Below, one piece after another: positions 303 to 21,652 of a stretch of DNA of 64,000 bases; the first letter of the stretch is position 1, and each line of letters opens with the position of its first letter. A program made the translations under genes and the position numbers. Below the pieces are notes generated by a model. The model searched no databases, was not told the origin of the DNA, and saw nothing but the letters and a program-made list of their open reading frames with translations. The stretch is from Xylophilus sp. GOD-11R. GTDB lineage: Bacteria > Pseudomonadota > Gammaproteobacteria > Burkholderiales > Burkholderiaceae_C. The DNA lies in the NCBI RefSeq assembly GCF_033546935.1, contig NZ_CP137854.1, positions 1,798,001-1,862,000 of the forward strand, written 5' to 3'.

Positions 303-320
303 CTTCCTAGCATTTGCGGG
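303..320 (+). promoter_or_regulatory. Start-associated repeated element, copy 1
   Basis: CTTCCTAGCATTTG at 303-316 followed by CGGG and the ATG at 321. The same 14-mer recurs exactly at 6011 and 8909, and with changes at 5036, each time 18 to 20 bases before a start codon. There is no purine-rich Shine-Dalgarno sequence at the usual distance here. Function unknown. Confidence 0.7.
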
Positions 321-668
321 ATGCCAGCCCGCATCGTCAACAAGCTCCCGCAGTTCGTCTCCAAGGTCGAGCAGCGCGCCGCGCGCGGCATGGTGCAGGG
401 CCTCGTCCTGGGCGCCAGCGAAGCGAGCGTGCTGACTCCGATCGACACGTCTAAACTGCTCAACTCGCAGTACCGCAGCGTCGAAAAGCAGGGCGACAAG
501 ATCGTCGGCACTGTCGGCTACACCGCCGAATACGCCATCCCGGTCCATGACCCGGACGTGAAGCAGCGTTTCCGCCGGCCCACCGCGAAGAAGGAATTTC
601 TTCGCCTCGGCTTCGAGCGGGCTGAACCGAATATCCGCGCGGTGATCAAGGGGGCCATCAAGACATGA
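321..668 (+). CDS. HK97 gp10-like head-tail connector protein
   Basis: A 115-residue protein in the position of the HK97 gp10/tail-completion family, which links the capsid connector to the tail. Support is size, the conserved gene order (next are tail terminator and tail tube), and the sequence pattern of an N-terminal amphipathic helix, a central region rich in Thr/Ser around TPIDTSKLLNS, a GYTAEYAIPVH segment and a C-terminal FLRLGFERAEP helix typical of this family. The ATG at 321 follows the repeated element. The stop overlaps the next start (ATGA). Confidence 0.75.
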   Translation: MPARIVNKLPQFVSKVEQRAARGMVQGLVLGASEASVLTPIDTSKLLNSQYRSVEKQGDKIVGTVGYTAEYAIPVHDPDVKQRFRRPTAKKEFLRLGFERAEPNIRAVIKGAIKT

Positions 669-1012
669 GCGCCGCTGACTCCCTGCGCAACTTCATCACG
701 CCGCTGCTGCCCGGCTGGCGCATCCAGTTCGGCCGCTGGGTCGATGGCTCGAAGACCGATCGATTCGCCGTGCTCCGGCCGGCCGGCGGCCTGCCCGCCG
801 AGCTCGTTCGCCGCCCGCACTTCACGCTGATGCTGGTCGGCGCGCTGGACCAGCCATCCGGCGAGGTCTCCGCCGCGGCCAACAGCGTCATCGAAGCCAT
901 GCGCGTGAGTAGCGGCGACCTTGTTTTCATGCAGCCGGGCGAGCCGGTCTACCACGCGACCGATGACGGCAGACCCGTCTTCGAGATCGCCATCACCACC
1001 ATCACCAACTGA
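665..1012 (+). CDS. Phage tail terminator-like protein
   Basis: A 115-residue protein translated from an ATG that overlaps the previous stop. Tail terminator proteins cap the tail tube and set its final length, joining it to the head; they sit between the gp10-like and tail-tube genes, as here. The sequence is a small alpha/beta protein with segments ending in a beta strand (FEIAITTITN), which fits the family fold, but I see no diagnostic motif. Assignment is mainly positional. Confidence 0.6.
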   Translation: MSAADSLRNFITPLLPGWRIQFGRWVDGSKTDRFAVLRPAGGLPAELVRRPHFTLMLVGALDQPSGEVSAAANSVIEAMRVSSGDLVFMQPGEPVYHATDDGRPVFEIAITTITN

Positions 1013-1022
1013 GGAATCCACC

Positions 1023-1478
1023 ATGTCTGGAGCTTTCACCGGCCGCGACGTCATCCTGAACTTCGCCATTGCGCTCGAAACCGGCGCCGCGCCCACCACC
1101 TGGAAACGCCTGGGCATGATGCGCGGCAAGTCTATGAAGACTTCCTGGGACACCGTCGACACCACCGCCGACATGTCGCCGGCCTTTACCAAGACCAACC
1201 TGGTGACGTTCAAAGCTGTGGAGTTCTCCGGCGACGGCGTGAGCTATGGCGAGGACGCTGCCAACCAGAAGGAATTCAAGGCCCACGTCATCAGCCCGGG
1301 CAGTGCTACCGACAACCAGCCCAAGGTCTGGCTGCAGATGATCGACCCGGACGGCGACGAGTACGAAGGCCCCTTCATCGTCAGCGAGTGGTCCGACGAC
1401 CGTCCGTACTCCGACACGGCGACCTGGTCGATGACCGCCATGAGCAACGGCAACGTCGTCTTCACGCCGGCTGCCTGA
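1023..1478 (+). CDS. Major tail tube protein
   Basis: A 151-residue protein preceded by GAGGAA six bases before the ATG at 1023, the best Shine-Dalgarno in the tail module, as expected for an abundant structural protein. The pattern GKSMKTSWDTVDTTAD near the N-terminus and the beta-rich middle with the segment IVSEWSDDRPYSDTATWSMT match siphovirus tail tube proteins, which polymerise as hexameric rings around the tape measure. An in-frame extension to 921 exists but has no ribosome site and would overlap the previous gene by 90 bases. Confidence 0.82.
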   Translation: MSGAFTGRDVILNFAIALETGAAPTTWKRLGMMRGKSMKTSWDTVDTTADMSPAFTKTNLVTFKAVEFSGDGVSYGEDAANQKEFKAHVISPGSATDNQPKVWLQMIDPDGDEYEGPFIVSEWSDDRPYSDTATWSMTAMSNGNVVFTPAA

Positions 1479-1481
1479 CTG

Positions 1482-2042
1482 ATGTTGGTCGAATCCGGGT
1501 ACGTCCGGGCCTGCACGCCTGACGGCTCGGAATTCACCTTTGCGCCATCGTTTGGGCGGATCTCCGGCCTGGGCGACCCGCAGGCTATTGTCGCGCTGTA
1601 TGCCGGGCTGTTTGGGCCGCGCGCCGAGGATGACGCCCGGTACGTCCTGGCCTGCCTATGCGAGCAGGACGACCCGACCCCCCTCATCGGCTGGGCTGAG
1701 GCTGGCGGCAACGAACTGACCTTGCATGCCGGCGCCATGCCGGCCGTCGAGCAGGTGCTGATCGCCCGCCACCTCATGCAGCACGGCATCGCCGGCAAGG
1801 CTCGACCAGGGCAGGCCGAAGGCAACGGGAAGTACTCCGATCGATTCGACGCGGCTGAGTATGTGTCCGCCGCGCGCGTGCATCTTGGTCTGTCCAGCGC
1901 GGACGCCGAGGCGCTGTCGATGACCGAATTCCAGACCATGCTGGAGATGAAGTTTCCCGAACAGAACAAGAAACGGAACGTGCCAAGCCGCGAGGAATAC
2001 GCCGCTCGAATGGCCGAAATGAAGGAGAAAAGGCGTGGCTGA
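1482..2042 (+). CDS. Tail assembly chaperone-like protein (gpG/gpT position)
   Basis: A 186-residue protein between tail tube and tape measure, where lambda has gpG/gpGT. The C-terminal part (about residues 140-186, TEFQTMLEMKFPEQNKK and a Lys/Arg/Glu-rich tail) resembles the tape-measure-binding end of such chaperones. The whole length is in one frame, so no programmed frameshift is needed, unlike lambda G-GT. The stop overlaps the tape measure GTG by 8 bases, suggesting translational coupling. Confidence 0.65.
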   Translation: MLVESGYVRACTPDGSEFTFAPSFGRISGLGDPQAIVALYAGLFGPRAEDDARYVLACLCEQDDPTPLIGWAEAGGNELTLHAGAMPAVEQVLIARHLMQHGIAGKARPGQAEGNGKYSDRFDAAEYVSAARVHLGLSSADAEALSMTEFQTMLEMKFPEQNKKRNVPSREEYAARMAEMKEKRRG

Positions 2043-4593
2043 GCAGGTCGGACAGATTTACTACGACGTCACGCTCGACACCGGCAAACTGTTGGTCGAG
2101 GTTCGGGTCGTCAACGAGCAGCTCGACCGCGTCACACGGCAGAGCGACAAGCTTGATGCCAAGTTCAACGCGCTAGCTCTGGCCGCCAAGGCACTAGCCG
2201 CTGCCTTTGCCACGATCAAGGCTGCTCAGCTTGCCGATGAGATCCGGCTCATGGCCTCCCGGGTCGAAGTTGCGGCAGGCAGCCTCGACAGCGGGGTCGC
2301 CGCGATGGCCCAACTCATCGCCATCAGCCGGAACACTCAGACCGCGGTATCTGCGAACGTCGAGGTCTTCTCTCGGCTGAACCAATCCTTGCTTCAAATG
2401 GGCGGCACCCAGGCCGACACGCTGCGCATCACCGAGCTTCTCGGCAAGGCCATCAAGGTCTCCGGCGCGTCGGCCGTCGAGGCGAAGTCGGCCATGCTCC
2501 AGTTCGGCCAAGCCCTGGGATCCGGAAAGCTGCAGGGCGACGAGCTGCGCTCGCTCATGGAGAACGCCCCATACTTGATGCGCCAGCTTGCCGACGGCAT
2601 CGGCGTGCCAGTGGGCGCTCTGAAGAAGCTGGGGGAGGAAGGCAAGCTGACTTCCGACGTGGTGGTCAATGCGCTCGGCAAGGCCGCCACCCAGATCGAG
2701 TCGGATTTCTCTCGCTTCCCGCAGACCGTGGCTGGCGCATTTCAGGTGGCGATGGATGCTGCCGAGCGCGCCAACGAAAAGCTTGACCAGCTGGCCGGCA
2801 CCAGTCAGCTGCTGACGGGCGCGTCGCAAGGCCTGGGCCAGGTGCTTGATAAGCTGGCCGACCAGTTCGGCTCGGTCAACGCCGAAGCTGGCACGCTGGG
2901 CCGAAATGCGGCCGTCAAGACCTGGGCGGACCAGACCCGCAACGCGCTTTCCTATGTGATCGACGCAGCAGACATGGTCTGGCAGACCTTGAGCGTGCTT
3001 GGCCGAAACGTCGCCTTCGTCTTCACGGGCATCGGCACGGAGATCGGCGGCATCGGAGCGCAGATCGCGGCCGTAATGCGCGGTGATTTCGCTGGCGCGC
3101 GGGCCATCGGCGAGGCCATGACCGCCGACGCCCAAGCCCGGCGCGCGAAGCTGGACGCCGAAGACGCCAAGACACTGGCCAAGCGAAAGCTATTTGGCGA
3201 ACAGATGCGCGAGGCGTGGGAGCAGGGTGCAGGCGGCGGCCGGGGCTCGGTGAATCCAACAACGGGTCCGGCGAAGCTGAAGCCAACTCCCGGGAGCGGC
3301 GACACGAAGAAAACCGCGAAGTTCGATGCCGACGGCTACATGGCCGGCCTATCTGCCGCTGCCGCATCCGAGTGGGACCGAATCGACCTAATCGAGAAGG
3401 AAGCGCTTCGAAAGAACGCCGAACGCCTCAAGGCCGGGCAGATCACCAAGAAGCAATCCGAAGAGGCTGTCACACTCATAGCCGAGGCCGCCCGCCAAGA
3501 TCGTCAGAAGATCATGGACCGTGAGTTCGACGAGGTCGTGAAGGACGGCGACAAGCGGGCTGAAGCGCAGAAGCGGTCCGAGGAAAAGATCGCTGCTGAG
3601 CGCAAGGCGGCCATGGAATATGGCGCGCAGCTCACCAAAGCCATCAACCCGGTCGATGCGCTGCGGCAGGAACTGCAGGCCAAGCTTGACTTGGTCAAGC
3701 AGTACGAGACGATGATGGCGGCCGCCGGCGTCGATGCCACAGCGCAGGGCATGGCTGCGCGGACTCAGATCCAGAACGAATACGAGAAGCAACGCTTGGC
3801 CCTTGCGGAGGCGTCATATCGTTCGCAGAGTGAATCGAATGCCCTGGTGGTCGACTCGCTCAACGCGCTGAGCAGCACGGGCGCCAATGCGATCGTGGGC
3901 CTCATCAACGGTACGATGAGCCTTCAGGACGTCATGCGGGGGTTGGCCAACACGGTGACTACCGAGGCAGTCGGCGCCCTGATCCGCGTGGGCATGGAGA
4001 TGGTAAAGAATTCGCTGCTCGCCAGCACGCTAGCGGCATCTGACAAAGCTCGTGGAGCCGCGCAGGGGGCTGTCTACGCGGCGAGCGTTAGCGCCCAAGT
4101 GGCCGGCATGACGGCCCTTGCTGCGCAAAATGCCTTTGCAGCTACCGCTGCCATTCCCATCGTCGGTCCGGGCTTGGCGCCAGCAGCGGCTGTGGCCGCC
4201 GGCGCGGCAGCCGCAGCCCTTGGCGCTCCAGCGGTTTCGACGGCGCCGTTGGCGGGGGCTCGTCAGTACGGGGGCAGCGCCGATGCTGGCCGCATGTACC
4301 GCGTGAACGAAACTGGCGCCCCTGAAATGTTTACAGGTTCGAATGGCCAGCAGTACCTGCTGCCCACAAAGTCAGGCTCTGTCACGCCGGCTGATCAGGT
4401 TGGCGGAAATGTGCAGTGGGTCATCAATATCAACAACACCGCGGCCGGAGTTCAAGCAGCCGCATCTGTTGACCAGACATCCCGCACGGTCGAAATTGCG
4501 GTTTCCACCGTGGCTAGCCAGATTGCCAATAACGAAGGAAAGGTGTGGTCGGCGCTGAAGGGCTCGACCAATGTGCGCGGTGCTGGGCTTTGA
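2035..4593 (+). CDS. Tape measure protein
   Basis: An 852-residue protein from a GTG at 2035 overlapping the chaperone gene. The N-terminal domain includes LDTGKLLVEV and a region around residues 95-230 (AISRNTQTAV, GELRSLMENAPYLMRQLADG-like) that is the tape-measure N-terminal family seen in many siphoviruses. Long helical, Ala/Lys/Glu-rich stretches occupy residues 350-620, and a hydrophobic Ala-rich segment near residue 700-750 is the likely membrane-inserting part. Length sets tail length, which at about 1.5 Å per residue suggests a tail near 125 nm; this is family knowledge applied to the length. Confidence 0.92.
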   Translation: MAEQVGQIYYDVTLDTGKLLVEVRVVNEQLDRVTRQSDKLDAKFNALALAAKALAAAFATIKAAQLADEIRLMASRVEVAAGSLDSGVAAMAQLIAISRNTQTAVSANVEVFSRLNQSLLQMGGTQADTLRITELLGKAIKVSGASAVEAKSAMLQFGQALGSGKLQGDELRSLMENAPYLMRQLADGIGVPVGALKKLGEEGKLTSDVVVNALGKAATQIESDFSRFPQTVAGAFQVAMDAAERANEKLDQLAGTSQLLTGASQGLGQVLDKLADQFGSVNAEAGTLGRNAAVKTWADQTRNALSYVIDAADMVWQTLSVLGRNVAFVFTGIGTEIGGIGAQIAAVMRGDFAGARAIGEAMTADAQARRAKLDAEDAKTLAKRKLFGEQMREAWEQGAGGGRGSVNPTTGPAKLKPTPGSGDTKKTAKFDADGYMAGLSAAAASEWDRIDLIEKEALRKNAERLKAGQITKKQSEEAVTLIAEAARQDRQKIMDREFDEVVKDGDKRAEAQKRSEEKIAAERKAAMEYGAQLTKAINPVDALRQELQAKLDLVKQYETMMAAAGVDATAQGMAARTQIQNEYEKQRLALAEASYRSQSESNALVVDSLNALSSTGANAIVGLINGTMSLQDVMRGLANTVTTEAVGALIRVGMEMVKNSLLASTLAASDKARGAAQGAVYAASVSAQVAGMTALAAQNAFAATAAIPIVGPGLAPAAAVAAGAAAAALGAPAVSTAPLAGARQYGGSADAGRMYRVNETGAPEMFTGSNGQQYLLPTKSGSVTPADQVGGNVQWVININNTAAGVQAAASVDQTSRTVEIAVSTVASQIANNEGKVWSALKGSTNVRGAGL

Positions 4594-4699
4594 AGACGGT
4601 AGCGGGGGAGGCGATAGGCTTATCTGCAAAGTCCGCACAACCCACTACTTCGGCCGCTATAGTTATGAGGACACAATTTGCAACGCTCTGGAGATACTA

Positions 4700-5029
4700 G
4701 TGGCAATATGGGATTCGTTTTTTGGAAGTACTTCGGACAAAGAAGACAAGCTCAGGGAGTTGTGGGTCAGCATCAAAGACATGCCCGAGCAGCAACTCAA
4801 GGATATTCTTGAGTTCCGCCCCAATACTCCACACGGACGCCTAGCGCTTGTGCGGCTTTTCCAAGTCAATACTTACGCAGCCAATGAAGTGGTTCAGGCT
4901 CACGTTGGGTTTGTTCCGGGCCTTAAACACATGATGGCATCGGATGAAATGTTGTTGGGCAAGGGGCAACATTTCGATGAACTTCGCCGGTTGACCAAGG
5001 ATGCAATTAGCGCTTTGGATAAAGTTTAG
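4700..5029 (+). CDS. Small protein of unknown function inserted in the tail module (moron-like)
   Basis: A 109-residue protein from a GTG at 4700 with GGAG six bases upstream. An in-frame start at 4571 would give 43 more residues overlapping the tape measure end; the ribosome site favours 4700. The codon use and base composition are clearly more AT-rich than the neighbouring tail genes. The sequence is helical and acidic with the segment LWVSIKDMPEQQLKDILEF; I recognise no family. It sits between tape measure and tip genes, where phages often carry acquired single genes, so a lysogenic or exclusion role is possible but not shown. Confidence 0.6.
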   Translation: MAIWDSFFGSTSDKEDKLRELWVSIKDMPEQQLKDILEFRPNTPHGRLALVRLFQVNTYAANEVVQAHVGFVPGLKHMMASDEMLLGKGQHFDELRRLTKDAISALDKV

Positions 5030-5035
5030 TACAGC

Positions 5036-5053
5036 CTTCCTAGTATCGGCTGG
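5036..5053 (+). promoter_or_regulatory. Start-associated repeated element, copy 2 (variant)
   Basis: CTTCCTAGTATCGG at 5036-5049, then CTGG and a GTG start at 5054. It matches the 14-mer at 303 in its first eight bases and at most others, at the identical distance (18 bases from its first base to the start codon). Confidence 0.6.
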
Positions 5054-5527
5054 GTGCACTTCCCCTATCCAGCCACCCTCCCGCTCCTTCAAAGCGCGAG
5101 CAAGAGCCGAAGCCAACCGACAGCGTTCTCCATCGCTGAGCCTCGCCGAGGTTACGGCTATGCCCAGGCGACAGGCACCGACACGCCGGTTTTCTGGGAT
5201 GGCGAATTCAAATTCACCACTGATCAGGCGATCGCGTTCCAACTCTGGTTTACCCAAACCCTGCGGCGAGGGCTGCTCGAGTTCACGATGCCTATCCGGA
5301 CAGAATTCGGCCTACTTGAGCATTTGTGCCGTTTCCTAGCCGACGACCTCGGCAACGCATCGGAAAACGGCGGCATCTGGACATATCCGGTGAAGCTGAT
5401 GACGCGGCGGCAGTTGATTCCCGCCGCGTTCATCGAGGCCCAAGACCTCATTACCGGCCTTCCTAGCTGGCGCTTGTGGTCCGAGATGCTGGACCGGACG
5501 GTGAACGCCGCAATCCCGGAGTCGTAA
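5054..5527 (+). CDS. Phage minor tail (tail tip) protein
   Basis: A 157-residue protein from the GTG at 5054, placed between the tape measure and a DUF1833-type protein. In related siphoviruses a conserved protein of this size in this position is a tail tip component. The segment WFTQTLRRGLLEFTMPIRTEFGL is the type of conserved core seen in such proteins, but I assign the role mainly from position. The stop TAA at 5525-5527 abuts the next start with no gap. Confidence 0.65.
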   Translation: MHFPYPATLPLLQSASKSRSQPTAFSIAEPRRGYGYAQATGTDTPVFWDGEFKFTTDQAIAFQLWFTQTLRRGLLEFTMPIRTEFGLLEHLCRFLADDLGNASENGGIWTYPVKLMTRRQLIPAAFIEAQDLITGLPSWRLWSEMLDRTVNAAIPES

Positions 5528-6010
5528 GTGGACAAAAAAGAGTTTTGGTCCACGAAGAATCCGCTGCCACAGTTCCAAGCGGTGGTCTTCTCACATCCGG
5601 CCTTCACGCAGGATTTCCGCCTGGTAGCTGATCAATTTGAACCTGTGACACTCGGCGGCCAGGTGCACCAGCCGGCCCCGATGACCGTCAAGCCGCCCGA
5701 TCAGACGGGTGACGCGACGGCGAAGCTCACTTTGGCATTCCCGCGAAACGTGGTCGGGCGCGAATTCAAGAAGCAGCTGAAACTGGTGCGCAATGCGGCC
5801 ATGCGCGCGCCTATCCGCTGCTGGTACCGGCTCTACCTTGATGACCGGTCAACGCCTGCGGTCGAATGGGCTCTCTATGTCTCTGACGCAGGTGGCGTCA
5901 CTTTCAACGCAGAGGCGGTCCAGGTAACGGCCACACTCGACAACCCCATGAGGCGAAGCGCCGGCCCCATCTACACGCCTGACCCGTTCACTGGGTTGGA
6001 ATTGATCTAG
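5528..6010 (+). CDS. DUF1833-like tail tip protein
   Basis: A 160-residue protein from a GTG at 5528 that follows the previous stop directly. The pattern with an N-terminal region ending in QAVVFSHPAF, a central beta-rich part, and the C-terminal segment GVTFNAEAVQVTATLDNP matches the DUF1833 family found just before NlpC/P60 and J-like genes in siphoviruses. These proteins are thought to be part of the baseplate-like tip. No enzyme motif is present. Confidence 0.68.
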   Translation: MDKKEFWSTKNPLPQFQAVVFSHPAFTQDFRLVADQFEPVTLGGQVHQPAPMTVKPPDQTGDATAKLTLAFPRNVVGREFKKQLKLVRNAAMRAPIRCWYRLYLDDRSTPAVEWALYVSDAGGVTFNAEAVQVTATLDNPMRRSAGPIYTPDPFTGLELI

Positions 6011-6029
6011 CTTCCTAGCATTTGGGCGG
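6011..6029 (+). promoter_or_regulatory. Start-associated repeated element, copy 3
   Basis: CTTCCTAGCATTTG at 6011-6024, identical to the copy at 303, then GGCGG and the GTG start at 6030. It begins directly after the TAG stop of the DUF1833-like gene. Confidence 0.7.
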
Positions 6030-6443
6030 GTGACATCCAGCCTTGCTCCCTTGCTCTCGCCATCCGAGTTCGCCGCCAAGATGGTGGGTATCCCATGGCG
6101 CAAATGGCGGTCAGATTTCCGCGCCTGCGATTGCTTCGGTTTGATCGTGCTCTGGTTCCGGCATGTTGTTGGAATTGAGCTCGGGCCGGTGCCCCACACC
6201 GACATTGCCAATGGCTTCAGCCAGGCGGCGGGTTGGCTCGAGAGCCCCCCAGAGGCTGGGGCCACCTGTTGGATGGCGTGGCGCGACGGGGCGCCAACGC
6301 ACTGCGGAATTCTGCTTACGGCCGACTCGGTGCTTCACGCCGAGGGTGGCGAAGAGCATCCAGGAAGCGTGCGAGTTTCCCGGCTGCGCGCCGTAGAGCT
6401 GGTGTACGGGCAAATCCGCTTCTACCGGTACACAGCATGCTGA
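6030..6443 (+). CDS. NlpC/P60-type tail tip peptidase (gpK-like)
   Basis: A 137-residue protein from the GTG at 6030. The segment ACDCFGLIVLWF contains the Cys of the NlpC/P60 active site, and THCGILL contains the following His; together these give the Cys-His pair of the family. Lambda gpK has the same domain and sits just before the J-like gene. It is expected to cut peptidoglycan cross-links locally during DNA entry. The stop overlaps the next ATG by several bases. Confidence 0.82.
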   Translation: MTSSLAPLLSPSEFAAKMVGIPWRKWRSDFRACDCFGLIVLWFRHVVGIELGPVPHTDIANGFSQAAGWLESPPEAGATCWMAWRDGAPTHCGILLTADSVLHAEGGEEHPGSVRVSRLRAVELVYGQIRFYRYTAC

Positions 6444-8902
6444 CCATCCTCAACGATCCGGCCGGTCTCACGGGCCGCCAGCGGCACGAATGGGACTTCG
6501 ACATCACCGTGCAAGCGAACATCGAGCGCCACCTCCGATCGGGAGGTGGCTGCAAGGTACTCGCCCTGGGAATCGAAATCGACCCGCTGGTCGACCCGCT
6601 GCTTGACCGGCACCCGACAGTTGTTGACTCTGTGACTGTCGTCCGCCGGCCTGAAGGGCTCGAAGCGTTGGCATACCTCGTAATCGCAGCCATCGCGGCA
6701 GTCGCCGTCACCTATGCCTTGATGCCCAAGGTAGCCACCTCGGCCAGCGGCAAGGACAGCCCAAACAACCAACTGACAGGCCAGACGAACGTCGCCCGGG
6801 CCTACCAGGCGATCCCCGACGTCTACGGCTACCGTCGAGTCTGGCCCGACCTGATCCAACCCAGCACGGTCGAATACATCGACCACATCAAATACGTTAC
6901 CGAGTGGATGTGCATCAGCCGCGGGAAAGGAGCGATCACCGCAGTTAACTATGCAGAGACGCCGATCGGAGACATCGCCGGCGCTAGCTATGAGGTTTTC
7001 TCGCCGGTCGCAACGTCGGGCTATCCCGAGTTCGGCCAGACCACGCTGCTCGATGTGTTGGAGACTTTCGCTAGCGACGAGGTCAACGGCCAAGAGCTTG
7101 TGCCTAGCGCCGCCTATGCGCCAGTGATGCGCAGCAGCAGCGTGTCATACGACACCGTACAGGGCCAGCCCGGGATCACGATCACCTTACCGGATGGCGC
7201 GGACCTTGCACAACTCAAGAGTCTGGCACCGACCGGGTTCGCCGCGGTTGCGTTTGCTGCCGGGGAAGAGTCGAGAACCTTCTACGGCAAGCTTTCAGGG
7301 TTCAACACCAACGGCGGAGGGTGCGCTCTTCACTTCGAGTCAGGGCCTCAGGCAGCAACGGCATCTTTCGGTGCCGGTTCCGTTACGATCACGCCAGATG
7401 CGACGACCATCACGGTCGCCGGCCCCTACACCCTGCCGGTGACTGGCAGCCGAATCCGATGGAACACGGTGTTTCTGCGAGGCCTAAGAGGATCGGTCAC
7501 CATCCGTGCCGAGTGGTGGCAGGTCGACAATGGCGGCGCCGAGCTTCCGGGCACGAGGCAATCTCAAAACAATACCTACACAGCAAAGACCTACGACCAA
7601 CGGTTCTACACGACAGATGTGATTCCGGCGGCGGGAACAGGGCGTTATCGAATCCAGTTCACGCGCACGTCGGCCGTCATTGGAGACGGCAGTTTCGATG
7701 TTGCCAAGCTGGAGGAGCTCTACGCCGTTCGGCATTACCCGGCAAAGGTCCTGCCTGGCGTTACGGTGATTCGTGTCACCACGAAGGCCACCGAGGACGC
7801 GACCGGCTACAGCGACCGCAAGTTCAACCTTCGTTGGCTCAGGCACGTCCGGGCGCTCTCGAATGACACCCTGGGCCCATCTCGAAATTTTGCCCGGGCC
7901 ATGGCTCACATTTGGACTATCAGCGGGAACAGAATCGCGGAACTGGACACGGCACGTCTGGCCGCGATCAATGCCGAATTCGGTGAGGAGCATCCGTTGC
8001 TCCGGTTTGACGCCAGCCTAGATGACGCAGACATGAGCCTGGGCGATCGCCTGCAGCTTGCTGCGGACGCCGCCCGGTGCGTTCTTTGGCGTGACGGCCA
8101 GAAATGGACCGTTACCCGCGATCAGCGGCGAAGCTACCCAGAGCTCCAGCTGGATTACCGGAATCTGGCAGCCGGCGGAGAGTCAGCAATCAGCTACGCA
8201 GCCCACCTGCCGGCTAGCAACGACGGCGTGGAGGTCGAATACATCGACGAGCTGAGCCAAGCAAAAAAAGCATACATCCGCCTCAGCATCGCTTCGGGCG
8301 CAGTGGTTTCGATGGAGGCAGGCAACCCGAAGAAGGTGAAGCTAGCGGCCTGCACCACCGCGGCGCAAGCCAACAACCGCGGGCAGTTCGAGGCGCGGCG
8401 ACTGCTGTACCAGCGGGTGAGCGTGACTGACACTGCGATGAGCGATTCGGGCACGCTGGGTATCGGTTCGCTCGTCCGGTGGATTGACCCAAATGATTTT
8501 GCCGGGGACGATGGATTGCAGGCGGGGGAGGTCCTGGCGATCAAAGGAAATTTCATAGCCACCAGCGAGCCGCTGGATTGGAAAGGGGAGCCGGACGGGC
8601 GGATTCTGTTCACCGGTCCGGATGGCAGGCACCTCGGCGCTCCCATCCGATGCTTGCCAGTGGTTCACGCCAACGGAGCAATAGTGCCCGATTTTGTCGA
8701 GCTCACGAACGTGCCGGACGGCTTATACGTGGCAGACGGTGAGCGCCAGCTCGGAAGCCGATACGCTTTTGCAGTTGGCCTGACGGATGCCGAGGTTGAA
8801 TCTGCCGGCCTATTCCTCACGACATCGATCAAGCCCGATTCCGCCACCAGCGCGGTGTTGGCATTGGCGGAATACGACGAGCGGATCTACGCGGGCGATT
8901 GA
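6437..8902 (+). CDS. Tail tip host-specificity protein (gpJ-like)
   Basis: An 821-residue protein starting at the ATG at 6437, which overlaps the end of the NlpC/P60 gene; a longer in-frame reading from 6233 overlaps that gene by about 200 bases and is rejected. Residues near 75-95 form a hydrophobic segment (LAYLVIAAIAAVAVTYALM), and the following QTNVARAYQAIPDVYG is typical of J-like tip proteins. The rest is beta-rich with repeated Fn3-like strands. This is the central tail tip protein that contacts the host receptor in lambda relatives. It lacks the large size of lambda J (1132 residues), so the receptor-binding end may be supplied by the following fibre. Confidence 0.85.
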   Translation: MLTILNDPAGLTGRQRHEWDFDITVQANIERHLRSGGGCKVLALGIEIDPLVDPLLDRHPTVVDSVTVVRRPEGLEALAYLVIAAIAAVAVTYALMPKVATSASGKDSPNNQLTGQTNVARAYQAIPDVYGYRRVWPDLIQPSTVEYIDHIKYVTEWMCISRGKGAITAVNYAETPIGDIAGASYEVFSPVATSGYPEFGQTTLLDVLETFASDEVNGQELVPSAAYAPVMRSSSVSYDTVQGQPGITITLPDGADLAQLKSLAPTGFAAVAFAAGEESRTFYGKLSGFNTNGGGCALHFESGPQAATASFGAGSVTITPDATTITVAGPYTLPVTGSRIRWNTVFLRGLRGSVTIRAEWWQVDNGGAELPGTRQSQNNTYTAKTYDQRFYTTDVIPAAGTGRYRIQFTRTSAVIGDGSFDVAKLEELYAVRHYPAKVLPGVTVIRVTTKATEDATGYSDRKFNLRWLRHVRALSNDTLGPSRNFARAMAHIWTISGNRIAELDTARLAAINAEFGEEHPLLRFDASLDDADMSLGDRLQLAADAARCVLWRDGQKWTVTRDQRRSYPELQLDYRNLAAGGESAISYAAHLPASNDGVEVEYIDELSQAKKAYIRLSIASGAVVSMEAGNPKKVKLAACTTAAQANNRGQFEARRLLYQRVSVTDTAMSDSGTLGIGSLVRWIDPNDFAGDDGLQAGEVLAIKGNFIATSEPLDWKGEPDGRILFTGPDGRHLGAPIRCLPVVHANGAIVPDFVELTNVPDGLYVADGERQLGSRYAFAVGLTDAEVESAGLFLTTSIKPDSATSAVLALAEYDERIYAGD

Positions 8903-8908
8903 CCGCGC

Positions 8909-8928
8909 CTTCCTAGCATTTGGTGTCC
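8909..8928 (+). promoter_or_regulatory. Start-associated repeated element, copy 4
   Basis: CTTCCTAGCATTTG at 8909-8922, identical to copies 1 and 3, then GTGTCC and the ATG at 8929. A GTG at 8923 is in frame with that ATG and directly abuts the element, so the start of the fibre gene is ambiguous by two codons. Confidence 0.7.
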
Positions 8929-10164
8929 ATGACGACACCCACGAGCGCTCCTGTTCCGAGCACCAGTCCGACCGATTTGCTGTTCAACGCCGAAAAGTTG
9001 GACCAGGCAATCAATTCGGCGGCCCTGAACTTCGTTGACCGGCTCGGAAGGGCGCGCCACACTTGGTCAGGACTGGAAGCCCAGGTCGATCTGGAAGCTA
9101 CTGCGCAGCGCAGTCAAATTCAATCAGCGGCCAATTTAGTGCTGGGTCAGGCTGGCTACGCACCGCCCGTCTTGTATGCCGCAGGCCTCCCGATGACGAC
9201 GCAGACCCAGACGGTCGATTACTCGGGCAACACCTACGCGCCGAAACCATCAGCACTTCCGTTCACGACCGGCAGCACCTTCGATCCCACAAAGTTCCGG
9301 CTGATCCAAGGAATTAGTGGCGGCGACCTGGCGGAGGTTGGCGCAGCGGCGCTCATAGGCACCGCCAGCGGCATGTCCGCCCAGGGCACCTTTGATCTGC
9401 TGCTGGCCAACGGCGGCACGCGCAACAAGATCATCAACGGCAACTTCGCCGTCAGCCAGAGCGCGCAGACCGGAACGATCACGCTCGGCCCGAACCAGTA
9501 CGGCCCGCACGACATGTGGCGCGCTGGTGCCGGCGGGTGCGTCTACACGTTCTTCTCGAACGGCATCGATACGGTCGTCACCATCGAGTCGGGCACGCTG
9601 GTGCAGGTCATCGAGCCGCTGTTGATCCAGGGCGCGAACTACTGCATCAGTTGGGCGGGCAGCTCGCGGCTGCAGACCGGCGGCGGCACATCGGCTGCCT
9701 CGCCGTACCTGCCGGCCTACACCGCGCCGGGCGCCTCTGGCATCGGGGTGGAGTTCGGCCCGGGCAGCCTGACGCTGGTGCAGTTCGAACCGGGCCCAGC
9801 GCCGACACCTTTCGAACGCCGGCTGTATCCGATCGAGCTGGCCCTGTGCCAGCGCTACGCCTGCCAGGGCGGAGACACGCCAAACGCATTCGTCCTGATT
9901 GCGCAGGCGAACACAACCACTCAGGCATTCGGCCATATCGCATTTCCTCAGCCGATGCGTACCCCTCCTACGTTTACTGCTGCAGCCGGCGCATTCCGCC
10001 TTGGCGGAGAAGTGGTCGGTGCGCTGGTGCCGGTGTCCATCACGCGATTCGGCGTCCTGGTGTCGTTCGCGCCCATGGGCTCGTTCACGCCCGGGGACGC
10101 CGTGTTGATCACACAGAGCGTCAACCCTAACGGCCCCATCTGGAACGCCAAGGCAGGACTCTGA
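8929..10164 (+). CDS. Phage tail fibre protein
   Basis: A 411-residue protein with helical N-terminal part (about residues 15-70, tail-attachment) and a beta-rich C-terminal half. The segment NKIINGNFAVSQSAQTG near residue 165 is a hallmark of many phage fibre and tailspike proteins, marking the start of the receptor-binding region, followed by DMWRAGAGGCVYTF. It follows the J-like gene directly and precedes a small accessory gene, the usual location of receptor-binding fibres. Start ATG at 8929 or GTG at 8923. Confidence 0.8.
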   Translation: MTTPTSAPVPSTSPTDLLFNAEKLDQAINSAALNFVDRLGRARHTWSGLEAQVDLEATAQRSQIQSAANLVLGQAGYAPPVLYAAGLPMTTQTQTVDYSGNTYAPKPSALPFTTGSTFDPTKFRLIQGISGGDLAEVGAAALIGTASGMSAQGTFDLLLANGGTRNKIINGNFAVSQSAQTGTITLGPNQYGPHDMWRAGAGGCVYTFFSNGIDTVVTIESGTLVQVIEPLLIQGANYCISWAGSSRLQTGGGTSAASPYLPAYTAPGASGIGVEFGPGSLTLVQFEPGPAPTPFERRLYPIELALCQRYACQGGDTPNAFVLIAQANTTTQAFGHIAFPQPMRTPPTFTAAAGAFRLGGEVVGALVPVSITRFGVLVSFAPMGSFTPGDAVLITQSVNPNGPIWNAKAGL

Positions 10165-13087: not shown

Positions 13088-14233
13088 ATGCAGAAATTGA
13101 ACGAAGTTACTTCTTTGGCTCATCCCGAAACCATATCGTCGCGGTACAAATCAATCGGGGGCTTCACCACTGGTTTTGACTATCTCCGAATAGGCTTGGC
13201 ATGCGCAGTGGTGTTTCAGCACAGCTTCCTTGCGAGCTATGGGCACTCGAGTAATTCATATATTTGGGCTGACTGGCACAGAGTTTTTTTTGCGCCCATT
13301 CTTTTGATGTTTTTTGCGTTAAGCGGATTTCTCGTCGCTGGCAGCTTGAAGAAAAACCCGAGTGTCACCTCGTTTGTGACGCTAAGAGCGGTCAGGCTGG
13401 TGCCAGCGTTAGCCATTGAGATTTTGCTTTCCGCATTACTGTTGGGGCCGGTGCTAACTGTGCTCCCACTATCGGAATACTTTTCAAGCAAAACCTTTTA
13501 TGCATACTTCGCAAATATAGTCGGTCATATAAGATTTTTCCTGCCGGGTGTTTTTCTTGATAATCCTGCGGCTAAGTTCGTGAACATTTCGTTGTGGACT
13601 GTTCCTTATGAACTTGAGTGTTATTTGGCATTGATTTGCTTGTGGCTTTCTGGAGTTATTAAACGGCGGGCGGCGGTAGTTGGTATCACTGCTGCAGTCA
13701 TTTTGGCGGGAACCGTATCCGCTTTTTTTGAATACGACCATGGGTGGGCCAATAATGCACCATTGCCCCGATCACTCATTGCAGCTTTTTTGGTTGGCCT
13801 TTGCATCAACCTATACGCAGATCGAGTGCGGTTAAATTGGCAGATTGCATGTGCCTGCTTGGCTGGGCTAATACTCACAACTGTAGGTTATCAGACTGTA
13901 TATCTGGCAGCAGGCTTTGCGGCGTACATCGTTGTTTATCTTGGAATGATGAATCCCGCGAAAAAAAGTTTCCTTTTTTCTGGCGATTATTCATATGGTC
14001 TGTATTTGTTCGCCTTTCCAATACAACAAACTTACAGCCTTCTCTTTCCAGAACATAGAGTTTGGTATTTGAATTTCTTTTTTGCAATGGTTTTTGGCCT
14101 TGTGTATGCGGCTTTTTCTTGGTGGGTAATAGAGAAGCCGGTCTTATCGAAGAAAAAGAAGATAGTTGACTACGCCGAGCAGTACACCTCCCGATTTGAA
14201 GCAAGATTTCAGATTCGCCGATTCTCGCGTTAA
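13088..14233 (+). CDS. Acyltransferase-3 family membrane protein, probable O-antigen/surface glycan acetyltransferase
   Basis: A 381-residue polytopic membrane protein with about ten hydrophobic segments. The family pattern is present: FDYLRIGLACAVVFQHS near residue 30, FALSGFLVAGSL near residue 79, the basic LRAVRLVPAL near residue 100, and WTVPYELECYLAL near residue 170. Such proteins move acetyl groups from the cytoplasm to surface sugars. Carried by a prophage they commonly alter O-antigen and block superinfection. The gene is much more AT-rich than the phage backbone. The ATG at 13088 lacks an obvious Shine-Dalgarno sequence. The exact glycan target is unknown. Confidence 0.85.
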   Translation: MQKLNEVTSLAHPETISSRYKSIGGFTTGFDYLRIGLACAVVFQHSFLASYGHSSNSYIWADWHRVFFAPILLMFFALSGFLVAGSLKKNPSVTSFVTLRAVRLVPALAIEILLSALLLGPVLTVLPLSEYFSSKTFYAYFANIVGHIRFFLPGVFLDNPAAKFVNISLWTVPYELECYLALICLWLSGVIKRRAAVVGITAAVILAGTVSAFFEYDHGWANNAPLPRSLIAAFLVGLCINLYADRVRLNWQIACACLAGLILTTVGYQTVYLAAGFAAYIVVYLGMMNPAKKSFLFSGDYSYGLYLFAFPIQQTYSLLFPEHRVWYLNFFFAMVFGLVYAAFSWWVIEKPVLSKKKKIVDYAEQYTSRFEARFQIRRFSR

Positions 14234-14822: not shown

Positions 14823-15302
14823 TTAGTGGAAGAGATCCGGTTGTGCGGGCGGCATTTGTTTGACGGCCACGGCAGTAGGTGGCGCAACAGGTCGAACCGA
14901 GCGAACTTCGAACCATGCTGTGTGCGAATCGGCCAGCCCACGCATGCCCTCGGCCCGGGCTTTCGCGGTGGCCGAAATCCAGGCCTCGGCCAGCGCGCGC
15001 TCCGATTCGGTCAGCTCGTCGGCGCTGCTGTCCTGCGCCAAGCTGAAGGCCCGAAGCGCGCCGGGCACCGCCAGCGGCCCGTGCAGCGCGCGTTCCAACG
15101 CGAGCCGATATCGCCACTCCGCATCCCCTGGTTCGGCACCCGGGTAGGGCGTGTAATCCTGCAGCGTGATCGACACCAGCCGCCGGGCTGCGGTGACGGC
15201 CGCATCGGCCTCGTGGTCGATCTTGTCCAGCGTGCGGCCACGCGTCTCGGCCATCGCGGCGCCGATGGCGGCGAACACCTCTTCGCGGGTGCGTTTCTTC
15301 AT
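14823..15302 (-). CDS. Conserved protein of unknown function, last gene of the SOS operon; homologue of the operon's first gene
   Basis: A 159-residue protein whose ATG at 15302 overlaps the umuC stop by 4 bases. I recognise no named family. Residues about 65-137 align with residues about 31-100 of the protein encoded at 17089-17397 on the other side of umuDC: shared pieces are RY..ALE.AL, RAF.LA, ALA.AW..AT, GMR.L and FE.R. By eye identity is about 40 percent over 70 residues. It has an extra N-terminal helical part (MKKRTREEVFAAIGAAMAE) and a Pro-rich tail. A partner or regulator of UmuC or UmuD is a reasonable guess from the bracketing position, but nothing in the sequence proves it. Confidence 0.75.
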   Translation of the reverse strand: MKKRTREEVFAAIGAAMAETRGRTLDKIDHEADAAVTAARRLVSITLQDYTPYPGAEPGDAEWRYRLALERALHGPLAVPGALRAFSLAQDSSADELTESERALAEAWISATAKARAEGMRGLADSHTAWFEVRSVRPVAPPTAVAVKQMPPAQPDLFH

Positions 15303-16606
15303 GCGATCACCAGCGGCATGCTGTCCCAGCAGGTCGTGTAGTCGGGCGTGCGGCGCTCGGCCTTCATAACCCATCGCCGGCGGCTGCCGTCCAGGCCGGC
15401 GCTGGCCATTGCCACGGTGCCCCGGCCGTAGCGCTGATTGAGCACGTCGACTGCCTTCATCAGACCGCCGCGGTCCTCGACGCCATCGTCGAGCTCCAGC
15501 TCGCCCTGTTCTACGGTGCCGTCCTGCAGGTCGAGCAGGTGCACGCCGGCCTTGGACATGTTGTAGCCCGGCCGGTAAATCGCCTCCATGCCGCGCACGG
15601 CCGCCTGCACCAGCAGCCCGGTGTCCGCCGTGGCCTTGCGCAGCGGCACCATGATCGCTCGGCTGTATTGCTTGTCCTGCCGGCGGAAGGGGCTGGTGTG
15701 CACGAAGACGCTGACCTGGCCGGCCAGGCTGTTCTGCCGGCGCAGTTTCTCCGCGGCGCGCTGCGCGAACTCGGTCACGGCCTCGGTCAGATCCTGTAGC
15801 CGCGTCACCGGCCGGCCGAAACTGCGGGTACTGGCGATTTCCTTCTTGTTCGGCGCCACCGCTTCCATGTCGACACAGGGCGTGCCCTGCAGCTCGCGCA
15901 CGGTGCGCTCCAGCACCACGCCCCAGCGCGCGCGGACCATCGCCGCGTCCATGCGGGCCACGTCGAGCGCGGTCACCAGGCCATCTGCCTGCAGCTGCGC
16001 GCCGATGCGCCGACCGATGCCCCAAATGTCTCCCAGCTCGGTGGCCTGCAGCACCGCGTCCATGTCCGAGGCGGGTAGGGCGGCCAGGTTGGCGACCTGG
16101 GCGAACTCGACCGGGTAGCTGCCGGGCTTGCGTTCTGCGGTCTTGGCGACGTGATTTGCGAGCTTGGCCAGGGTTTTGGTGCCGGCGATGCCGATGCCGC
16201 AAGGGATGCCGATCCAGTCGAGTATGCGGCCGCGCACCGCGCGGGCTCGCCGCGTCACATCGCGCACGCCGGCGACATCGACGAAGCTCTCGTCGATGCT
16301 GTAAATCTCCTGCTCCGGACCGAGTCCGGCGGCCAGGCTCATCATCCGGTTGCTCATGTCGCCGTACAGGCCGTAGTTCGCGGAGAGCGCGACGATCGCG
16401 CCGTCAGGGAGTTTGTCGCGGATCTCGAAGTAGGGCGTGCCCATCTTGATGCCCAGGGCCTTGGCCTCGTTGCTGCGGGCGATCGCGCATCCGTCGTTGT
16501 TGGACAGCACGACCACGGCGCGCTCGCGCAGGCTGGGTCGGAATACCCGCTCGCAGCTCACGTAGAAATTGTTCCCATCGACCAGGGCAAAAAGCGGTGC
16601 GGCCAT
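15299..16606 (-). CDS. umuC: Error-prone DNA polymerase V subunit UmuC
   Basis: A 435-residue Y-family polymerase that copies past lesions. The palm residues are present: ALVDGNNFYVSCE with Asp10 and the YSIDESFVDV motif with Asp105 and Glu106. The finger segment VVLSNNDGCAIARSNEAK and the helix-hairpin-helix region IWGIGRRIGAQLQADGL follow, so the enzyme looks intact. Length is close to the family norm (about 420). The ATG at 16606 has GGTGAGG upstream; an in-frame GTG at 16612 is the alternative. It follows umuD closely and ends by overlapping the next gene. Confidence 0.95.
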   Translation of the reverse strand: MAAPLFALVDGNNFYVSCERVFRPSLRERAVVVLSNNDGCAIARSNEAKALGIKMGTPYFEIRDKLPDGAIVALSANYGLYGDMSNRMMSLAAGLGPEQEIYSIDESFVDVAGVRDVTRRARAVRGRILDWIGIPCGIGIAGTKTLAKLANHVAKTAERKPGSYPVEFAQVANLAALPASDMDAVLQATELGDIWGIGRRIGAQLQADGLVTALDVARMDAAMVRARWGVVLERTVRELQGTPCVDMEAVAPNKKEIASTRSFGRPVTRLQDLTEAVTEFAQRAAEKLRRQNSLAGQVSVFVHTSPFRRQDKQYSRAIMVPLRKATADTGLLVQAAVRGMEAIYRPGYNMSKAGVHLLDLQDGTVEQGELELDDGVEDRGGLMKAVDVLNQRYGRGTVAMASAGLDGSRRRWVMKAERRTPDYTTCWDSMPLVIA

Positions 16607-16613
16607 GGACACC

Positions 16614-17057
16614 TCACCGGCGGAACTGCTTGATGCTGGCCGTTACCACGCCCCAGACCTCAAGCGTCTGACCTTCGCGGGGCACGATGTCGGGATAGGT
16701 CGGATTGGCCGCCACCAGCCGGATGTGCCCGGCGCGCCGCTGCAAGTACTTCACCGTGAACTCGCCACCGTCGAGCACGGCCACCACAATGTGACCTTGC
16801 GCCGCTCGAATCGCCCGGTCGACCACCAGAACGTCGCCATCGAAGATCCCGGCCTCTTTCATCGAGTCGCCGCGGACTTTCACCAGAAATGTGGCCTGCG
16901 GGTGCTGCACCAGCTGTTCGGTCAGGTCGACGCGCTTGCAGTTGAAGTCATCGGCCGGGCTGGGGAAGCCGCAGCGGACGGTGTATTCGGCCAGCGGCAG
17001 GACGAGCGGCAACAGGGAAACAGGGACCGGGAGGCCCGGCAGCAGAGCGATGCTCAT
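16614..17057 (-). CDS. umuD: Polymerase V accessory protein UmuD (LexA-type self-cleaving)
   Basis: A 147-residue protein. The cleavage site is Cys29-Gly30 in VRCGFPSP, with Ser65 in RGDSM and Lys103 in TVKYLQR forming the Ser-Lys dyad of the S24 family. RecA filaments trigger self-cleavage to UmuD', which joins UmuC to form polymerase V. There is no helix-turn-helix domain, so it is not a LexA-type repressor. One base separates its stop from the umuC GTG/ATG region. It is the second gene of a leftward operon under a LexA box. Confidence 0.95.
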   Translation of the reverse strand: MSIALLPGLPVPVSLLPLVLPLAEYTVRCGFPSPADDFNCKRVDLTEQLVQHPQATFLVKVRGDSMKEAGIFDGDVLVVDRAIRAAQGHIVVAVLDGGEFTVKYLQRRAGHIRLVAANPTYPDIVPREGQTLEVWGVVTASIKQFRR

Positions 17058-20398: not shown

Positions 20399-21652
20399 CT
20401 AGGCCAGCAATTCGCTGAGTTCGCCGACGTTTGCGCAGCGGCTGGTAATTTCTTCGATGAGTATCCGAAGCGCTCGGTTCTCGAAGCGCAACACGGCGGC
20501 CAATGCACCTGGTTCGAGGGCGGAAGTTCGCGACGCGGCGCCGAAATCACTGAGCAAGGCATTTCCGGTCGGATCGACCAAAAGGTTGTGCGCGTAGAGG
20601 TCACCGTGCGAAAGGCCCTGTTTGTGAAGGTGGGTGAGCGCTGCTGATGCCGCCTTGATCATCTTCGCCGCGCTTTCAGCGCTTATGGCCAGTCCCGAAT
20701 CGTATATGTCCCGTGTGCACGAATCGAGACTGGGCGGCTGGGCAAGGGCTTGGTAGGTTTCGTTGAGGAGCGGCATGACCAACCCGTGCAAGCCAAGGGG
20801 GTGGTGGCTTATCTTGGCCAGCGCACCGATGAGATGCGCGTGTTTTCCTGCGGCGAGGCAGGCGTCCATTTCATCGCTCGGCCGGCCGTCGCTGGTGATG
20901 TCGCCCTTGAAAATCTTGATCGCTACTCGTTGGCCACCATTGCCATGCTGCCTGACCCGACCTTCGTGAATGACACCAGACGCACCTTCGCCCAGAACTT
21001 TGCCGAGTTGTAGTGATTCCCACGCTAGTTCCGGAATGATCGATGCGGGGGCCTGGTTCGCGTCCACCGGAGCGCTGAAGGGGTTTCCCGAGAACGCCAA
21101 CCATGCCAACTTGGGCAAATCCAACAGACAAGCTGGAAACGTCGTCAATCGATTGGCTGCAATTCGAACCAACTCCAGGTTGCTGCATTTCGCCAAGTCT
21201 GCCGGAAGTTTCTGCAGCCTATTGCCGGCAAGCATCAGCTTCTGAAGGGCCGGGCGGTTTCCAATTTCCGTCGGAAGGGCCTCCAAAGCGTTGTCAGTCA
21301 AAATCAACCAGCGTAGCCGTTCCGGAAGGGCTGCTGCCTCCACCGATTGAATTTGATTGGCCTTGAATCCGAGGGTGTCGAGGGACGGGCATCGACCCAG
21401 CGCGATGGGCAATTCTGAAAACAGATTGTCCGAACAAAAAATGACTTTTAGCCTATGCAGCCTGTGCAGGTCCGCTGGAAGCTCGGTCAATTGATTGCCC
21501 GAAAGGTTCAGGACTTCCAGGGAATCAGCCAAGGAAAAAATTTCGCGCGGAAATTCTTTCAGTCCACCACTTAAATCCAGGCGCTTGATGCCGGAGAGTT
21601 GGCCGGCGAGTAGTTGGGAGTAGGTATCGCAGAAGTAAGTATCGGAGGTCAT
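20399..21652 (-). CDS. Leucine-rich-repeat protein with C-terminal serine/threonine-like kinase domain
   Basis: A 417-residue protein in two parts. Residues about 20-190 are seven or so leucine-rich repeats with the pattern L..L.LSGNQLTELP. Residues about 213-417 are a protein kinase domain: Gly-rich loop GEGASGV (221-227), VAIKIF with Lys246, HGDLYAHN (349-356, with Gly in place of the usual Arg) and SDFG (DFG 369-371). The key Lys, Asp and Asn are kept, so activity is possible. The domain is shorter than classical kinases. There is no signal peptide or membrane helix. Genes of this architecture occur in some pseudomonads and plant-associated Burkholderiales; substrate and role are unknown. 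It runs tail to tail with the pseudogene and lacks a well-spaced ribosome site. Confidence 0.9.
   Translation of the reverse strand: MTSDTYFCDTYSQLLAGQLSGIKRLDLSGGLKEFPREIFSLADSLEVLNLSGNQLTELPADLHRLHRLKVIFCSDNLFSELPIALGRCPSLDTLGFKANQIQSVEAAALPERLRWLILTDNALEALPTEIGNRPALQKLMLAGNRLQKLPADLAKCSNLELVRIAANRLTTFPACLLDLPKLAWLAFSGNPFSAPVDANQAPASIIPELAWESLQLGKVLGEGASGVIHEGRVRQHGNGGQRVAIKIFKGDITSDGRPSDEMDACLAAGKHAHLIGALAKISHHPLGLHGLVMPLLNETYQALAQPPSLDSCTRDIYDSGLAISAESAAKMIKAASAALTHLHKQGLSHGDLYAHNLLVDPTGNALLSDFGAASRTSALEPGALAAVLRFENRALRILIEEITSRCANVGELSELLA

Follow-up and report, generated by a model that had tools for sequence, protein, structure and literature searches.

Locus and repeated element

The DNA analysed here is a stretch of 64,000 nucleotides from Xylophilus sp. 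GOD-11R (contig NZ_CP137854.1, positions 1,798,001 to 1,862,000; referred to below as the window), which begins within a prophage; the upstream part of the prophage was read in two further stretches of the same genome (L121 and L122). Several late genes of this prophage and of related phages are preceded by a short element which, judged from sequence comparison, is very probably a promoter. The copies in the window and the genes associated with them are as follows.

303..316, + strand: element with core TTCCTAGCAT at 304-313 and proposed −10 box TAGCAT at 308-313, preceding the neck gene.
321..668, + strand: neck or tail-completion gene (match to PHROG 5), with its ATG at the predicted transcription start.
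5036..5049, + strand: variant of the element with core TTCCTAGTAT at 5037-5046, directly 3' of an open reading frame (ORF) of 152 amino acids.
5054..5527, + strand: gene for a virion structural protein of 157 amino acids (match to PHROG 384), GTG start.
5528..6010, + strand: minor tail protein gene (PHROG 396), second in the unit of the 5036 element and without an element of its own.
6011..6024, + strand: element with core TTCCTAGCAT at 6012-6021, before the NlpC-like tail gene.
6030..6443, + strand: minor tail gene (PHROG 329), GTG start; some of its matches in phage records carry the annotation NLP/P60.
6437..8902, + strand: J-like tail protein gene (PHROG 469; PHROG 31, central fibre J), second in the unit of the 6011 element.
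8909..8922, + strand: element with core TTCCTAGCAT at 8910-8919, before the tail-fibre gene.
8929..10164, + strand: tail-fibre gene (match to PHROG 4492), ATG start.

A sequence-only reading of the window had described four copies of a 14-mer before tail genes, and these were recovered: CTTCCTAGCATTTG occurs exactly at 303, 6011 and 8909 on the + strand and, with three mismatches, as CTTCCTAGTATCGG at 5036. The start codons that follow (ATG 321, GTG 5054, GTG 6030 and ATG 8929) follow the first base of the respective copy by 18, 18, 19 and 20 nt, as that reading had stated. The copy at 303 precedes a neck/tail-completion gene and not a tail gene proper, and the four copies are not the complete set, as the window truncates the prophage. 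Four further core sites were located upstream (genome positions 1785889, 1790350, 1791230 and 1797936); in L121 coordinates they are as follows.

L121:5888, + strand: core site before the portal gene.
L121:10349, + strand: core site before the PHROG 760 gene of 439 amino acids.
L121:11229, + strand: core site inside the PHROG 760 gene (L121:10384-11703).
L121:17935, + strand: core site before the PHROG 797 gene of 113 amino acids.

The sequence CTTCCTAG is present five times in the window (0.42 expected; at most two in 100 shuffles), the copy at 5459 being intragenic and away from gene starts. Seven matches to the 14-mer with up to three mismatches were found in the window where 2.99 are expected, so that loose matching adds noise. 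The copies of the 14-mer are real and exceed chance, and its length was overstated, the last bases lying outside the general signal. Throughout the 46.2 kb prophage the pattern T[TC]C[CG]TAG[CT]AT occurs eight times in the forward orientation and never in reverse; a start codon lies 16-19 nt from the first T at six of the eight sites, and the numbers expected per strand from a first-order Markov model are 0.11 sites and 0.0075 sites with a start codon at this distance. The 5.1 Mb genome as a whole has eight copies of TYCCTAGCAT; six of these are inside the prophage, which gives no indication of a host-wide promoter.

Occurrence in related phages

Relatives were recruited in two ways. The J-like tail protein matched 316 viral contigs, the best 80 of which were analysed. 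In the 32 contigs with 51-65% identity in this protein, and with up to one mismatch allowed, the core was present 62 times on the forward strand and once on the reverse, counted per contig with contigs of the same phage counted separately; the 48 more distant contigs (∼32% identity) gave 12 forward and 13 reverse matches, which is the chance level. As controls, the reversed motif (3 forward/2 reverse) and the complemented motif (2/3) were counted in the contigs recruited by the J-like protein. A second set of 43 contigs was recruited solely by another gene of the prophage (gene X, described below) and contained the core 99 times forward and five times in reverse (reversed motif 0/0), a count that retains three repeat loci (L247, L279 and L283) and near-duplicates such as L249/L250. 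The element is enriched in related phages, which was the check that the sequence-only reading had named, with strand bias in both recruited sets.

Eleven phages or prophages were read over long stretches and contained 63 forward and four reverse sites in total, each phage being used once (L123 was equated with L204, and L138 with L205 and G610, by site spacings). In the spacing of their sites two of them match prophages found in Roseateles terrae and Pseudorhodoferax sp. Leaf265, and a Burkholderiaceae metagenome-assembled genome contains one, which gives Pseudorhodoferax, Roseateles and this assembly as the named hosts of the group. As the phages are related, the site counts are not independent events, and sites ≥80% alike were removed for the consensus. 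The J-like protein was found neither in seven genomes of the genus nor in 399 genomes of the order beyond the own genome (E up to 1e-50), and the portal protein was present in three of 299 genomes of the family, the own genome among them.

The exact 14-mer was uninformative as a probe of viral contigs. It matched at least 120 places without link to the starts of long genes; 19 of these had ATG or GTG 17-21 nt further on, and the frames opened there had at most 38 codons.

At five sites (L127:902, L129:1677, L148:3632, L150:489 and L285:13947) the element is followed by a nearly identical gcggatagggatgcaacccgaaaagcct, the contigs and gene positions being different; at most sites with gcggatagggatgcaacccgaaaagcct the ATG opens a frame of six codons only, perhaps within a small RNA or a leader.

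Conserved bases and distance to start codons

For the consensus, 159 non-redundant sites were retained after exclusion of those with ≥80% identity across 60 nt, with N or close to the end of a contig. Conservation is confined to the core and to base −1 (a preceding C or G), and there is no conserved −35 box around these sites, as in −10-only recognition of the T4 type. The exact core TYCSTAGCAT was found 138 times forward and three times in reverse, and sites with one change 47 times forward and 13 times in reverse. The 13 start-linked sites among these 47 depart at position 1 (three sites), 5 (one), 6 (six) or 7 (three). No start-linked departure occurs at T4, A8 or T9, so TAnnAT is the stricter part and, set against the −10 box consensus, resembles a −10 box. 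In one contig recruited by gene X that lacks the standard core (L280) the variant TATCAT is found at the start of the portal-like gene, at that of the PHROG 760-type gene and inside the latter, a uniformity that suggests co-evolution of the element with a factor.

Gene starts were called automatically throughout. At 89 of the 159 sites the start codon is 16-19 nt from the first T, and a transcript starting 7 nt past the −10 box would begin at offset 16. The mean duplex energy ahead of these near starts is −0.84 (shuffled −1.06), with −4.5 or lower in four of 89 (shuffled 7), i.e. there is no Shine–Dalgarno signal; the claim that genes behind the element lack a normal Shine–Dalgarno sequence is borne out for this class. 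A further 46 sites have an assigned start 24-54 nt away; here the mean is −4.86 (shuffled −3.07) and −4.5 or lower is reached in 27 of 46 (shuffled 12), an example being L121:10349 with AAGGGG ahead of ATG 10384. The base before the start is C or T at 68 of the 89 near starts and at 18 of the 46 far starts.

Late genes and transcription units

In the 11 phages the element precedes the portal gene in eight of eight cases, the PHROG 760 gene in 8/11, the genes of PHROG 797 and PHROG 782 in 5/11 each, the 157-amino-acid gene and the NlpC-like gene in 6/11 each and the neck gene in 1/11. It was found before none of nine other late genes (0/98). The gene-specific counts are lower bounds owing to the automatic starts; the PHROG 760-type gene of G699, for example, has the element but was missed. 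As the element precedes some late genes and never these nine others, the late region is divided into units. Several units in this prophage are split by extra genes, many of them on the minus strand. Terminator-like hairpins are modestly enriched just upstream of the elements (10/159 within 100 nt upstream, against 4/158 downstream, 4/158 in the reverse complement and 15/790 at random positions).

An in-frame internal copy of the element is present in 14 of 16 listed PHROG 760-type genes at codons 275-283; these 16 were chosen for their length, for an element upstream of the start and for an N-terminal LS[AT] motif, and the count is confined to genes with all three features. The internal copy encodes S-L-A or S-V-A, the residue alternating between Leu and Val, with rare codons (CTA 53 of 2157 Leu codons, GTA 50 of 1781 Val codons). 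PHROG 760 shows weak similarity to head maturation proteases (E 0.003-0.004).

Gene X, a candidate regulator

The ORF families common to at least five of the 11 phages were sorted by eye and searched for a regulator. Gene X is the only family outside the terminase and head–tail genes that is not an evident shadow frame, and no other universal early regulator was found among the shared families, although rapid evolution could have hidden such a gene from this comparison. Downstream of X (L121:2408-2893) in this prophage come the presumed small terminase gene (weak helix–turn–helix matches) and then the large terminase gene, so that X sits between the early genes and the terminase genes. The element co-occurs with X: the X profile (A2) matched ten of the 11 element phages, all except one that is represented by a partial contig, and with these as the positive control it matched none of 20 distant relatives (20 of 57 fetched). 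Two X queries gave no match in 50,697 INPHARED phage records. Ten of 22 distinct X genes have an element 300-650 nt upstream of the sequence for their C-terminal motif (excluding the repeat loci L247, L279 and L283, X proteins >70% alike and X genes close to a contig start).

Near its N-terminus X usually carries a QLxLF motif, which is the consensus for binding to the bacterial β clamp in the available text of two reports (PMC9690074, PMC4549789). Of 25 non-redundant X proteins, 21 contain the pattern Q[LIM].LF (after shuffling, 0.05 on average and never more than 1); the 25 were kept from 130 (120 listed of 276 found, plus ten from the phages); among 1755 ORFs of ≥100 amino acids in the 11 phages it occurs in 12, seven of which are X. 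The known clamp-binding motifs are usually C-terminal according to the same portions of these reports (PMC9690074, PMC4549789), in which respect X differs.

The sigma region 2 profile PF04542 had no match in seven phage records at E up to 1 (a control matched 11 of 14 genomes), and PF04545 gave only sub-cut-off matches in four of the seven; gp55 itself was not used as a query.

Interpretation

The best explanation for these observations, and a probable one, is a late promoter of the phage whose mRNA would often be leaderless, with X as the candidate specificity factor. The promoter would comprise 10-11 bp with the consensus [CG]T[TC]C[CG]TAGCAT, ending in TATCAT or TACCAT in some phages, and there would be roughly one per late transcription unit. 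TAGCAT would serve as the −10 box and the TYCS just upstream would add specificity, with no −35 box. RNA would start ∼7 nt past the −10 box, at or a few nucleotides from the start codon (ATG or GTG). More than half of the sites would then give leaderless or nearly leaderless mRNA and many of the others a longer leader with a Shine–Dalgarno sequence; leaderless mRNA is likely at most of the near-start sites. Transcription from the internal copy in the PHROG 760 gene would yield a nested mRNA encoding the C-terminal part of the protein, possibly a scaffold product by analogy with phage λ.

Because no sigma region 2 was found in the seven phage records, the host RNA polymerase would be expected to transcribe the late genes with help from the phage. 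The phage specificity would most likely be supplied by X, which has an element upstream of its own gene about half of the time; that X regulates the element is the favoured assignment, held with some reserve. Through its QLxLF motif X may tether the polymerase complex to the host sliding clamp and so link late transcription to replication, a coupling that T4 achieves with other proteins and that is put forward tentatively for X.

Several observations weigh against this reading. On the side of the element, most core positions are fixed by the search pattern and the tolerance test allows one change only, and 34 of the 47 forward one-change sites are not start-linked. The standard core is missing from six of the 43 contigs recruited by X (two have variants, L271 and L280; L279 does not include the late genes; three short contigs gave no site), and G697 has X and few sites in its late genes. 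There remain 24 of the 159 sites outside the two distance classes, five with the start at 13, 20 or 21 nt and 19 without an assigned start. The far class is heterogeneous; some of its starts are GTG codons within the PHROG 760 gene, which are perhaps not real starts, and 19 of its 46 sites have no clear Shine–Dalgarno sequence. A fixed transcription start combined with the 16-19 nt spread would give leaders of 1-3 nt in some genes, two of the four genes in the window have GTG starts, GTG being less favoured for leaderless mRNA, and translational coupling could serve where a start lies just past an upstream stop codon.

On the side of X, 12 of the 22 X genes, including that of this prophage, have no element upstream; the X proteins of G686, G692, G699 and P0098 lack the strict motif; and a second X in G686 is located in a decayed region with no elements in 24 kb. 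Comparison with Pfam, PHROGs, NCBIfam and the PDB gave no convincing match for X. Its predicted model is poorly ordered (mean pLDDT 67, pTM 0.25), with a β-hairpin and helix at residues 104-137 and no recognizable DNA-binding fold, and is too poor for fold comparison.

If the late-promoter reading is true, leaderless late mRNA would be a common mode of expression of structural genes in these phages, start-codon calls would be corrected and the presence of minus-strand genes inside the late region without silencing it would be explained. The element would then be a compact late-expression code for a group of phages found only in prophages and in metagenomic or genome-derived viral contigs, and a second, unrelated case of late transcription perhaps tied to the sliding clamp.

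Alternative explanations

An operator or antitermination site, at which a phage protein would act on transcription already crossing the late genes, is unlikely. Several copies on the same strand at unit boundaries would suit it, as would the placement of X before the late genes, where λ-type Q regulators are located; the tight spacing to start codons and the Shine–Dalgarno contrast are not expected from such a site. Minus-strand genes lie between units of this prophage, for which reason re-initiation seems more useful than read-through.

It is also rather improbable that the element acts in translation initiation, the RNA UUCCUAGCAU being recognized by the ribosome or a phage RNA-binding protein in place of a Shine–Dalgarno sequence, as has been proposed for the start-associated sequences (SAS) of mycobacteriophages. 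The fixed spacing of 16-19 nt at 89 of 159 sites without a Shine–Dalgarno sequence would agree with this, whereas the 46 sites with the start 24-54 nt away have, on average, a Shine–Dalgarno signal, one conserved copy is intragenic (in the PHROG 760-type gene) and there is a modest excess of terminator-like hairpins upstream. The restriction of start-linked departures to positions 1, 5, 6 and 7 and the exclusive use of TATCAT in L280 suit a −10 box instead. The sequence-only reading had proposed a start-associated signal, translational or transcriptional. Association with starts is upheld by the spacing in the window and in the relatives; a transcriptional signal fits better than a translational one because far-start sites often have a Shine–Dalgarno sequence, a copy is intragenic and hairpins are modestly enriched upstream. 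The likeness to the anti-Shine–Dalgarno strand that it had noted is not needed as an explanation.

Recombination or moron-insertion boundaries, with the repeats as homology patches for cargo swaps, are very unlikely: the elements of the portal, PHROG 760, PHROG 797 and 5054 genes in this prophage do have extra genes immediately ahead of them, yet the core is only 10 bp long with a fixed spacing to most start codons, and the element is kept at insert-free junctions (303, 6011 and 8909) and within a gene. A chance repeat, for which the unlinked 14-mer matches in other viral contigs (at least 120 places, not start-linked for long genes) might speak, can practically be dismissed in view of the strand bias in independently recruited contigs and the counts in the prophage.

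Comparison with known systems

The late promoter proposed here was compared with described signals. In phage λ the scaffold gene Nu3 is nested in gene C. The internal signal in a weakly protease-like head gene could likewise give a C-terminal product, which is hypothetical here; it differs in that the internal signal is the same late-promoter element.

The late promoters of T4 are described, in the available text, as lacking an upstream element and depending on clamp-bound factors (PMC2988020, PMC7892883). A short −10-only signal that marks late genes is shared with the gp55/gp33/gp45 system, and X, through its clamp-type motif, would be no more than a candidate for the activator role. The promoter sequence is different, no sigma region 2 was found in the seven records, the phages are prophages of siphovirus type and the mRNA would often be leaderless; the motif of X is the bacterial QLxLF, located towards the N-terminus, X itself has no known relative, and the clamp engaged would be that of the host.

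In Deinococcus-Thermus a TANNNT −10 motif lies a few base pairs before the ORF and gives leaderless mRNA with no ribosome-binding site, as far as the accessible part of the report goes (PMC12340547). TANNNT a few nucleotides before the start and the absence of a ribosome-binding site are found at 89 of the 159 sites and not at the far-start sites. That promoter is host-wide and belongs to another phylum, whereas here a phage signal of 10-11 bp carries TYCS before the −10 box. The element would work like the T4 and Deinococcus promoters and belongs to neither, as no gp55-like sigma domain was found and the sequence and hosts differ. It is possible, though it must be regarded as doubtful, that siphovirus-type prophages have, independently of T4, replication-coupled late transcription in which X ties host RNA polymerase to the host β clamp, with −10-only, often leaderless promoters, a nested PHROG 760 promoter and a promoter before X in about half of the phages.

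The SAS of cluster K mycobacteriophages contain AGGAG and mark non-structural genes in the accessible text (PMC3203893). They resemble the element in being repeated, almost always in one orientation and a few nucleotides before start codons (PMC3203893, same text). The core TYCSTAGCAT has no Shine–Dalgarno sequence and precedes portal, head and tail genes, so that the analogy drawn by the sequence-only reading holds for the start association and fails for the Shine–Dalgarno core and the restriction to non-structural genes.

A MEME search for intergenic motifs is given in the methods of the report on phage Loki, the available text of which describes no such motif (PMC5313236). Among the papers listed on late promoters, leaderless mRNA, the clamp and SAS, none described the element or a phage late system using the host clamp, the coverage of papers being incomplete. 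With CCTAGCAT as text no phage-promoter title was present among the matches listed, and the combination of late promoter, prophage and Comamonadaceae had no match.

Neighbouring genes

Between the tape-measure gene and the 5036 element lies the ORF of 152 amino acids (window 4571-5029, + strand), which has no PADLOC match and may be inserted cargo. Directly before the PHROG 760 element an AAA ATPase gene and a partner (L121:8244-10282, − strand) match PADLOC PDC-M31A (E 9e-91) and PDC-M31B (E 1.5e-10), and the pair is a candidate anti-phage defence system. A DUF4238 gene (L121:4816-5898, − strand) and two ORFs of 459 and 221 amino acids without a PADLOC match (L121:15818-17850, − strand) are also situated directly before elements.

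Near the prophage end a membrane protein of 381 amino acids (window 13088-14233) appears O-acyltransferase-like and is possibly involved in lysogenic conversion. Putative UmuC-like and LexA/UmuD-like genes (window 15299-17057, − strand) adjoin this end, and an ORF at window 20399-21652 (− strand) would encode leucine-rich repeats followed by a protein-kinase-like stretch.

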